Assembly: GCF_000278135.1 (NCBI RefSeq)
Contig: NZ_JH725022.1
Span: 442,186 to 506,185, forward strand
DNA from: Candidatus Bartonella washoeensis Sb944nv
GTDB taxonomy: Bacteria; Pseudomonadota; Alphaproteobacteria; Rhizobiales; Rhizobiaceae
DNA: 64,000 nucleotides
Direction of reading: 5' to 3'
Below are positions 35,950 to 52,653 of this stretch, piece after piece. A program made the translations under genes and the position numbers. Under the pieces are notes generated by a model, which did no database searches, was not told the origin of the DNA, and saw only the letters and a list, made by a program, of their open reading frames with translations. Numbering within the stretch: position 1 is the first letter of the stretch; each line of letters begins with the position of its first letter.

Positions 35950-36510
35950 ATGAATGTTGCATCTATTATGGATGATTTGAAGCGTCGCATGGATGGTTCT
36001 ATTTCGGCTTTTAAACACGAATTAGGTGGCTTGCGAACTGGGCGAGCATCAGCCAGTTTATTAGAGCCATTAACCGTTGAGGCTTATGGTTCTGTTGTAC
36101 ATATAAATCAGGTTGCAAATATTTCTGTTCCTGAACCGCGGATGCTTTCAGTTTCTGTATGGGATAAAACGATGGTAGGGGCTGTGGAGCGTGCTATTCG
36201 CGATTCTGGTCTTGGTTTAAATCCCATAACGGATGGTATGAATTTGCGTATTCCTTTACCTGAATTGAATGAAGAGCGCCGTAAAGAACTCGTAAAAATT
36301 GCGCATCATTATGCGGAGCAAGCTCGTATTGCTACGCGCCATGTTCGTCGGGATGGAATGGACAATTTGAAGAAATTAGAAAAAGAAGGTGAAATTGGTC
36401 AAGATGAGGCTCATGGTTTATCTGAGAAAGTTCAAAAACTCACAGATGAAACCATTGCTGATATTGATAAGATTTTGGCAGTAAAAGAATCTGAAATTAT
36501 GCACGTTTAA
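35950..36510 (+). CDS. frr: Ribosome recycling factor
   Basis: Splits post-termination ribosomes together with EF-G. 186 aa, full length. Blocks: [54 protein letters not shown], and the C-terminal helix. AAAGGAGA precedes the ATG. In relatives uppS follows immediately; here the next 750 bases hold only the remains of that gene. Confidence 0.98.
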
Positions 36511-36559
36511 GGTAATTTTTTTGCCAGAAATATTATATCTGTGTCTTATAACATCGTTC

Positions 36560-37160
36560 TTATGGGTAAAAAGCGGAGATGATGTGTTCTGTTGGTAGCA
36601 GGGCATGAGTATGAGGATAGATGTATTCTTGGATTGACTGTATAAGCAAGATTGATTTGAAGTGGCAAATGTTTTTTGAATTTTTATTTGCGCTTTAGGG
36701 GAGGGCTATCTGCTGGAGAAAATTATGTAACAGAATAATAAAAGGTTTTTGTTCAATGTAGCTTTATTAAGTTGCATGATAAAAATGTTTTTATGATTGA
36801 AGATCTTTCAAATATTCTATGGCAAATGTTAGAGAGGAATATGACAAAAGAAGTGCTTTAATTTTGCTGTTATTCTCTATTTAAAGAATACAATGGGATA
36901 GAGCAGATGATCGGTGTTTTACACAACGCGTTTCCGATGTCTTTTTAGCTTTTGAGCAGATGACTGATAGTTTGGTAGAAAAATGTTTTCATACGCAGTG
37001 AATACCAGATCTAAATTTTATAATTCGTGTAGGCAGGAACGACATTTTCTCATTCTTACGATTAATTGAATATTGGGAAATGTGTTTTGGGTTTGATCGT
37101 GATAAGTTTTCTGATTATTGTTCCTATGAACGCCATCTTGGTATATCCAATCATTTATGA
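36560..37160 (+). pseudogene. uppS: Decayed uppS (undecaprenyl diphosphate synthase)
   Basis: Lies between frr and cdsA, the usual uppS place. Fragments in the right order resemble UppS: VAGHEY (36595-36612), FLFAL (36681-36695; compare LTLYAFS), KLHDKNV (36769-36789), EDLSNIL (36799-36819), then in another frame EQMTDSLVEKCFHTQ, a TGA at 36999, and IPDLNFIIR (from 37002; compare IPDPDLIIRT), FDRDKFSD (37092-37115) and YERHLG (37125-37142), ending with TGA at 37158. Stops and at least one frameshift break it, and the N-terminal MDGNGRW motif is not readable. The remnant is about 80-85% of normal gene length. Not translatable as one protein. A working copy must exist elsewhere, or another prenyltransferase does the job. 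Confidence 0.82.
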
Positions 37161-37259
37161 TAAATTATCGGTAAAGTTTGCAAAAATGTGAATGTAAAAA
37201 TGCTACCGCGCAAAGTCTTTTGCTCGCATGACCTCTTGAGTTTGTAATTTATTTATTGT

Positions 37260-38090
37260 TTGGATGTTGTTTTGTCTAATCTTATTTCTCGTACTCTGAC
37301 GGCTTTTGTTTTTGGTATTATTGCTTTAAGTTTAACATGGCTGGGAGGAACTTTATTTTTTTTGTTTGCATGGGTGATTGGCGGTTTTATTCTTTATGAA
37401 TGGACTAGTATCACTAAAGAAAAATGGCATGTTTCTCAAAAAATATTAGTGGGTGTTTTTTATTTAGTTTTTGGCTCTTTGCTAGTAGCGAATGTGTCTG
37501 CTTCATTAATTTTTTGTATTTTGATAGCTTTGGCAGCACTGTTAGCTATTATCGGGCCTATAAAAAAGAGTGGTTGGATTTTTTTGGGTTTTTTATACGC
37601 ATCTTTTCCGGTTGTGTCTTTGTGCTTTTTGCGAGGTTATGAGACGCTAGGATTCTGCGTTGTTATCTTCTTATTTACAATAGTGTGGGGAACAGATATT
37701 GCTGGATATTTTAGTGGACGTGCGTTTGGTGGTCCTAAATTAGCACCACAATTTTCTCCTAATAAAACGTGGGCAGGGGCGATTGGTGGTACATTTGTCG
37801 GAGTTTCTGGCGGTATATTGGTTGCTTTTCAGTTTTTTGATGTCAATTTAACAGGTTTTTTTGTGCCATTACTTGCACTTAGTTTATCGATTGTTTCGCA
37901 ATTGAGTGATTTGGGACAATCATGGCTAAAAAGACAATTTTCAGTTAAAGATTCTAGTTCTTTATTGCCTGGACATGGTGGATTTATGGATCGTATGGAT
38001 GGGTTGATAGGAGCTGCTTTTCTGCTTTATTTAATTGGTTCATTTATGTCTGATATGAATACACCTTTTAATCTTTTTCGTATGGTTTAA
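37260..38090 (+). CDS. cdsA: Phosphatidate cytidylyltransferase
   Basis: Makes CDP-diacylglycerol for phospholipid synthesis; integral inner-membrane protein with about eight helices. The CdsA signature is intact near the C-terminus: SWLKRQFSVKDSSSLLPGHG followed by GFMDRMDG. 276 aa. No ATG is usable: the frame starts with TTG at 37260, or TTG at 37272, which has GGATG five bases upstream and would give (M)SNLISRT. Expression without uppS translation upstream is a point of interest. rseP follows after 15 bases. Confidence 0.94.
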   Translation: MDVVLSNLISRTLTAFVFGIIALSLTWLGGTLFFLFAWVIGGFILYEWTSITKEKWHVSQKILVGVFYLVFGSLLVANVSASLIFCILIALAALLAIIGPIKKSGWIFLGFLYASFPVVSLCFLRGYETLGFCVVIFLFTIVWGTDIAGYFSGRAFGGPKLAPQFSPNKTWAGAIGGTFVGVSGGILVAFQFFDVNLTGFFVPLLALSLSIVSQLSDLGQSWLKRQFSVKDSSSLLPGHGGFMDRMDGLIGAAFLLYLIGSFMSDMNTPFNLFRMV

Positions 38091-51357: not shown

Positions 51358-52653
51358 TTAATTCATACGCTTATCTATAGGGACATATTCACGCGCTGCA
51401 TAGCCTGTATAGAGTTGGCGTGGTCGACCAATTTTTTGCGCGGAATCCTCAATCATTTCTTTCCATTGTGCGACCCATCCGACACTGCGTGCTAATGCAA
51501 AAAGAACAGTAAACATTTCAGTTGGAAAGCCTAAAGCTTTTAGTGTAATGCCAGAATAGAAATCAACATTCGGATAAAGTCTTTTTTCAACAAAATATTC
51601 ATCATTCAGGGCAATATTTTCAAGTTCTATAGCAATATCAAGAAGTGGATCATCTTGAATATTCAGTTCTTTTAAAACCTCATGGCAGGTTTGTTGCATG
51701 ATTTTTGCGCGTGGATCATAATTTTTATAGACTCGATGACCAAACCCCATAAGACGGAAAGGATCATTTTTATCTTTTGCACGAGCAATGAATTCAGGAA
51801 TTCTTTTGACGGAACCTATTTCTTGTAACATTTTTAGGCATGCTTCATTGGCTCCACCATGAGCTGGTCCCCAAAGGCATGCAACACCTGCTGCGATGCA
51901 TGCAAATGGATTAGCTCCAGATGACCCAGCAAGACGTACAGTGGATGTAGAAGCATTTTGTTCATGATCTGCATGGAGAATAAAGATTCGATCCATAGCT
52001 CGAGTAAGCACTGGATTGATTTTATATTCTTCACAAGGAACAGAAAAACACATACGCAGGAAATTGGCAGCATAACTCAAATCATTTCGCGGATAAACGA
52101 ATGCCTGCCCAATACTATATTTATACGCCATAGCGGCAAGAGTTGGAACCTTTGAAATGAGACGAATAGAAGCGATCATTCTCTGTTGAGGATCTGTAAT
52201 ATCAATGGAGTCGTGATAGAATGCCGACATAGCTCCAAGACATGCAACCATGACGGCCATAGGATGCGAGTCACGACGGAACCCTTGGAAGAATCGCGCA
52301 AACTGCTCATGTACCATTGTGTGTTGCATAATACGACGGTCAAAATCGATTTTTTCTTGTTTTGTTGGCAGTTCACCATAAAGTAAAAGATAGCAGCTTT
52401 CGAGAAAATCTCCTTTTTGAGCCAGTTGGTCGATAGGATAACCACGATAAAGCAATATTCCTTTATCACCATCAATATAAGTAATTTTTGATTCACAAGA
52501 GGCAGTTGAGGTAAAACCAGGATCATAAGTAAAAGTATCTGTTTCTTTATAGAGAGAAGCAATTTCAATGACATCTGGACCTATAGTGCCTTTACGCACA
52601 GGTAGTTCTATTTCTTTACCATTCAGGGTAATATGTGCTTTATTCTCAGACAT
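51358..52653 (-). CDS. gltA: Citrate synthase
   Basis: Condenses oxaloacetate and acetyl-CoA at the entry of the TCA cycle. 431 aa, type II (hexameric, NADH-sensitive class). Active-site blocks: [30 protein letters not shown], and [23 protein letters not shown] lies about seven bases upstream of the ATG. The gene contains the well-known conserved sites used for Bartonella gltA typing, which supports the genus call. Downstream of gltX on the same strand. Confidence 0.98.

Follow-up and report, generated by a model that had tools for sequence, protein, structure and literature searches.

Decay of uppS in its conserved operon position and absence of a detectable cis-prenyltransferase from most Bartonella genomes

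The cis-prenyltransferase UppS (undecaprenyl diphosphate synthase), which makes the lipid carrier used in peptidoglycan synthesis, is regarded as essential for walled bacteria and is a drug target. Its sequence motifs MDGNGRWA, FSSENW and RTSGE have a catalytic role. Mycobacteria rely on a different enzyme of this family. The IspB-type synthases are known for quinone side chains, IspB itself making the side chain of ubiquinone. The polymerases of peptidoglycan prefer a carrier in which the first isoprene units are in the cis configuration, and an all-trans chain would lack these. PMC5814848 describes mycobacteria as being without uppS, and PMC5039524 states that the lipid which MraY and MurG take as substrate still raises many questions.

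In the window, the 64,000-nucleotide stretch of the Candidatus Bartonella washoeensis Sb944nv genome analysed here, the interval from 36511 to 37259 (plus strand) lies between two intact neighbours: upstream frr, encoding ribosome recycling factor (35950 to 36510, plus strand, a 186-codon frame), and downstream cdsA, encoding phosphatidate cytidylyltransferase (37260 to 38090, plus strand, a 276-codon frame counted from the first possible start, TTG). The window's frr is 75-97% identical to its matches in the other 69 genomes read; frr matches were found in 70 of the 71 genomes of the genus, and cdsA matches in all 70 operons read. The initial annotation had seen no open gene between frr and cdsA and had read the interval as an uppS gene that decayed in its operon position. 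The three forward frames of 36511-37262 do contain 16, 21 and 17 stops, no open frame on the plus strand is longer than 52 codons, and the interval has no continuous frame of about 220-250 codons as expected of a functional PF01255 member.

Searching the window by tblastn with the intact UppS proteins of two other Bartonella genomes (G006 and G047) revealed UppS similarity in the interval, as one linked, ordered match (E 3.5e-9) made up of two pieces in different frames. The first piece (36742 to 36852, plus strand) corresponds to residues 103-141 of the G006 UppS frame and contains the peptides KLHDKNV (36769-36789) and EDLSNIL (36799-36819), both in frame 1 of the interval. The second piece (36912 to 37154, plus strand) corresponds to residues 169-261 of the same protein and contains, in frame 3, IPDLNFIIR (37002-37028), FDRDKFSD (37092-37115) and YERHLG (37125-37142). 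All five UppS-like peptides from which the decay had been proposed were thus located, in order and in mixed frames. Residues 23-102 of the G006 frame had no tblastn match in the interval at E ≤ 1. The intact G006 and G047 proteins carry all three catalytic-type motifs named above; the window stretch aligned to IIRTSGE reads, by eye, IIRVGRN. Elsewhere in the window the best UppS match (minus strand, 52480-52641, E 0.006) has the look of a chance hit. Frameshift-tolerant local alignment of the interval to UppS gave a score of 162 on the plus strand and 38 on the reverse strand, and 20 dinucleotide shuffles of the interval scored 38.5 ± 4.5, with a maximum of 48. The linked tblastn match and the alignment score together bear out the decay of uppS in its operon position. 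The two query proteins are, by their scores, ordinary family members: both pass the TIGR00055 cut-off of 109.55 bits (263.8 bits for G006, 277.5 bits for G047), and G006 UppS scores 241 bits against 4q9m, the structure of an isoprenyl transferase.

The frr-cdsA interval was read in 70 genomes of the genus, the window included, and the order rpsB-tsf-pyrH-frr-(uppS)-cdsA-rseP-bamA is conserved in them (in G058 bamA is not within the stretch, which stops at the contig end). Fifteen genomes have uppS at this same place, in 14 of them as one intact frame. In the fifteenth, the single-contig genome G014 of the outer clade described below, the gene is broken by a frameshift (G014:C1:1136209-1136870), which could be a recent loss or a sequencing error. 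In the 55 genomes without a family match the intervals measure 417-1129 bases, 49 of them 570-827 bases, and hold no uppS-sized frame. The interval of G035, with 1129 bases, is about 300-400 bases longer than those of most relatives, and something was therefore inserted or duplicated there.

Plain tblastn (E<1e-3) detected a relic in nine of the 55 lacking genomes, the window among them. When the frameshift-tolerant alignment was used, the plus-strand score was higher than all 20 shuffles in 32 of the 55; the reverse strand reached this level in 3 of 55, about the chance expectation, and no relic above the shuffles was present in the other 23. The scores ranged from 406 in G048 through 313-348 in G012, G029, G038 and G041, 193 in G036, 162 in the window and 157 in G065 down to background, a spread that suggests losses differing in age or in speed of decay. 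Divergence of the interval, expressed relative to that of four-fold sites in the flanking genes, was 0.83-1.40 in 20 pairs of lacking genomes and 0.38-0.51, about half as fast, in four pairs of UppS-positive genomes (hand-chosen pairs, uncorrected differences). The interval therefore shows no sign of constraint in genomes that lost uppS, and purifying selection in those that kept the gene. Between the window and G033 or G036 the divergence of the interval about equals that of the four-fold sites. Segment 36511-37259 is a neutrally decaying uppS. Two other identities of the interval were considered and rejected: an RNA gene (no Rfam match up to E 1) and a regulatory stretch (promoter-like sites at chance level, no terminator, neutral divergence).

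A PF01255 profile search of the complete set of contigs to which the window belongs (1.97 Mb, 11 contigs, rated 100% complete) gave no match even at E ≤ 10. This genome-wide search for another cis-prenyltransferase argues against the initial suggestion that the function had moved to another locus or to a second uppS copy. Across the genus, with one genome per species and profile searches, the family was present in 15 of 71 genomes and absent from 56. Several of the 56 are single contigs rated 99-100% complete; one of them, G063, is 85% complete and also has no frr match, hence it is little informative. The same search found the family in each of 14 control genomes, archaea included. In a sample of the order PF01255 was found in 391 of 396 genomes (391 of 393 outside Bartonella); the five exceptions were the window's genome, two more Bartonella genomes and two drafts with a completeness rating of 95%, the sample containing just three Bartonella genomes, all without the family. 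In a sample of the class 142 of 143 genomes were positive, the sole exception being the window's genome. The initial annotation had made its reading subject to a sequencing artefact, which is excluded because 56 of the 71 genomes are without any PF01255 match, 55 of the 70 operons show no family match and no frame of uppS size, and the G014 gene is frame-broken.

Among 39 named Bartonella records, 38 of which were assigned to their genomes by sequence, UppS was found only in Bartonella sp. F02 (G047). The named records without it include B. bacilliformis Ver097, B. koehlerae, B. clarridgeiae, B. rochalimae, B. doshiae, B. elizabethae, B. grahamii, B. tribocorum and B. vinsonii. We consider the loss of uppS in these Bartonella virtually certain. 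No report of UppS loss in Bartonella was found among the open-licence papers searched. The main text of a B. quintana metabolic model paper (PMC11983613) does not contain the words undecaprenyl, isoprenoid or prenyl, and uppS does not occur in PMC6044324 on ant-associated Bartonellaceae.

The distribution of uppS was compared with the phylogeny. An inner clade of 57 genomes, which we take to be the blood-borne Bartonella, is set apart by a long branch of 0.27 changes per column, and 55 of its members have no detectable cis-prenyltransferase. The outer clade comprises 12 large genomes, presumably of the insect-gut type; all 12 have uppS in the operon (one frame-broken), and G064 also keeps the gene. 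The UppS-positive genomes G047 and G006 fall within the inner clade in a FastTree phylogeny of six flanking proteins from 70 genomes. In a tree of 26 genomes (2194 columns) G047 joins the relic-bearing G048 (95/90), the position of G006 is not resolved, and the test of all lacking genomes as one clade gave a borderline result (p-AU 0.057). With 20 genomes and 7335 columns (19 proteins, the six flanking ones and thirteen of the dcw cluster) G047 and G048 (Bartonella sp. A05) were sisters at 99/99. On this set the grouping of the 14 lacking genomes as one clade, and with it the single-loss hypothesis, was rejected (p-AU 0.0045, dlnL 67.8), and the clade of lacking genomes minus G048 was not (p-AU 0.256); the tested group was defined once an initial tree was already known, and LG+G4 served as the model, both of which weaken these p-values somewhat. 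Because the single clade was rejected and the clade of all but G048 was not, the trees point to at least two losses, two being sufficient, or to one loss followed by regain at the same place. Regain of uppS in its old place is unlikely. The initial annotation had described the decay for one genome; the decay stands, and its scope has widened to 55 of the 57 inner-clade genomes and at least two losses. Close relatives still carry a functional copy of a gene that was lost more than once, and it is therefore probable that a replacement or a relaxed need came first; whatever made UppS dispensable would have existed before the losses.

The isoprenoid supply is kept. IspH, the last step of the MEP pathway, is present in all 71 genomes. 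Each of the 71, with or without uppS, has two intact PF00348 genes, one IspB-like and one IspA-like (the naming rests on the window's genome), which rejects an extra trans-prenyltransferase in the lacking genomes. Among the NCBIfam models the IspB of the window's genome fits octaprenyl diphosphate synthase best, over a 244-residue stretch with 278.5 bits; the whole-protein cut-off is 412. Alignment of IspB from 27 genomes showed an Asp-rich motif unchanged except for conservative swaps and no diagnostic difference between UppS-positive and lacking genomes, and a changed IspB was rejected on this ground. Conversion of IspA to a longer-chain enzyme found no support either: its first Asp-rich region starts HCYSLIHDDLPA in 18 of 18 aligned genomes (six UppS-positive, 12 lacking).

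Four further, partial PF00348 matches lie beside ispA in G001, G023 (two) and G051. Three of them contain stops; that of G001 is open over 117 codons and aligns to profile positions 168-231. In these three genomes the 3′ part of ispA is partially copied just downstream of the intact gene (in G051 at G051:C83:65754-66065). A squalene/phytoene synthase-like PF00494 gene is located at G000:C1:410962-411723, and PF00494 was found in all nine Bartonella genomes examined, five UppS-positive and four lacking.

The wall machinery is retained as well. The canonical peptidoglycan genes (MraY, MurG, the Mur ligases, FtsW and FtsI) are present in the window's genome. Its dcw cluster is complete, and the cluster was present in all 20 genomes read; these have kept murB to murG, ddl, ftsI, ftsW, ftsA and ftsZ, the last running off the read stretch in several of them. 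MraY was found in 70 of the 71 genomes, absent only from the incomplete G063, and in 19 other genomes read it is 84-96% identical to that of the window's genome. Anomalies confined to single genomes were a split murF in G041, a 446-codon ftsI frame in G043 and a short mraY frame in G039 (G039:C2:157800-158195); these are perhaps assembly errors.

We looked for alignment columns separating the two UppS-positive inner-clade genomes from the lacking ones. In a comparison that covered 20 of the 70 genomes (10 lacking genomes for IspA, 12 for IspB), such columns numbered 0 of 356 in MraY, 0 of 384 in FtsW, 1 of 407 in IspB and 3 of 378 in MurG, and 4 of 435, 3 of 325 and 5 of 809 in the comparison proteins FtsA, MurB and BamA, respectively. 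Separating columns are not enriched in the first four proteins relative to the other three, which gives a new-carrier signature in the wall enzymes no support.

BacA-type undecaprenyl diphosphatase (PF02673) occurs in one genome of the 71 (G064:C1:880534-881283), and is absent also from 14 of the 15 uppS-bearing genomes. PMC7416641 lists a 22.65 kDa UppP annotated in B. bacilliformis, which may perhaps be a PAP2-type enzyme. By profile search no PF02397 transferase was found in any of the 71 genomes, UppS-positive or lacking, and other carrier clients were rejected on this ground as a reason for keeping UppS. MraY is the only PF00953 member above the cut-off; together with the absence of PF02397 this means that peptidoglycan may be the only client of the carrier. 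A further PF00953 match, too weak for the cut-off and lying in a frame of 325-341 codons, is present in 13 of 71 genomes, so another client is possible.

The gap in the pathway is one step wide: farnesyl diphosphate can be formed and MraY needs a polyprenyl phosphate, the enzyme between the two being absent. The all-trans product of IspB is the simplest candidate for filling it, because IspB is the sole other long-chain synthase found. As a leading guess, and the least certain of our inferences, we tentatively propose that the lipid carrier is now an all-trans polyprenyl phosphate cut from the IspB product, in which case one polyprenyl synthase, IspB, would supply both respiration and peptidoglycan. 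More tentative still is the extension that the blood-borne species of the inner clade, human pathogens like B. bacilliformis among them, might build their peptidoglycan on this carrier without any cis-prenyltransferase. Nothing in IspB, MraY, MurG or FtsW marks a change of carrier, as judged from the IspB alignment and the separating columns. As IspB is the same in UppS-positive and lacking genomes, it leaves unexplained why only these lineages dropped uppS. Alternatively, a cis-prenyltransferase unrelated to PF01255 in sequence may have been gained on the long branch to the inner clade; it would continue to supply a cis-polyprenyl carrier and would have made the old uppS redundant and open to more than one loss. 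Losses nested among UppS-positive relatives fit a redundancy that arose once and earlier, and the length of that branch and the wall enzymes without enriched separating columns are also consistent with it. However, no candidate gene was identified, there is no additional intact PF00348 gene, and PF00494, present in UppS-positive and lacking genomes alike, is not a specific gain; we regard such an enzyme as somewhat unlikely.

The carrier could also come from outside, as polyprenols or dolichols taken from the host or a blood-based medium, phosphorylated and then used by MraY. All lacking genomes of known position belong to the inner clade, taken as blood-borne, and uppS is kept throughout the outer clade, presumably of the insect-gut type, if frame-broken once, and in G064. 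Uptake is nevertheless improbable: the UppS-positive G006 and G047 are members of the same inner clade, IspH and both trans-prenyl synthases are retained, and mammalian dolichols are alpha-saturated. That a real uppS was overlooked, in an assembly gap, on a plasmid outside the assembly or as a member too divergent for the model, is very improbable. The first look of the profile search is heuristic, but the same search was positive in all controls, archaea included, and in all but one of the class genomes, the gene is missing from 56 of 71 genomes, several of them one-contig and nearly or fully complete, and the relic occupies the normal place. It is hardly credible that ordinary peptidoglycan is no longer made and no carrier needed. 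The loss of UppS and the rarity of the BacA-type phosphatase would agree with this, but MraY is conserved almost throughout, the genes from murB to murG, ddl, ftsI, ftsW, ftsA and ftsZ are kept, and BacA is missing from nearly all uppS-bearing genomes too.

A walled, culturable genus that lost uppS more than once, with close relatives keeping it, makes two questions about the carrier testable: which of its features MraY, MurG and the polymerases require, and what substitutes for a cis-prenyltransferase. UppS inhibitors are predicted not to act via UppS on the lacking species. If the IspB-derived carrier is real, these Bartonella would be a walled bacterial lineage whose lipid II lacks a cis-polyprenyl chain.

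Among described systems, the relic in the window resembles UppS (PF01255, TIGR00055) of the rpsB-tsf-pyrH-frr-uppS-cdsA-rseP-bamA operon in position and in residual sequence. Unlike intact UppS, it has no open frame, its frames are mixed and interrupted by many stops, and the genome holds no family member elsewhere. Mycobacteria, reported in PMC5814848 to be without uppS, are likewise walled, miss the standard orthologue and use a different carrier. Decaprenyl diphosphate synthase structures (2vg2 and others) match UppS and the control Corynebacterium glutamicum is PF01255-positive, whereas the lacking Bartonella have no detected member of the cis-prenyltransferase family. Compared with the known IspB-type all-trans polyprenyl diphosphate synthases (PF00348), the use of IspB for a wall carrier in Bartonella is our guess, in a family that makes long polyprenyl diphosphates and is intact in 71 of 71 genomes.
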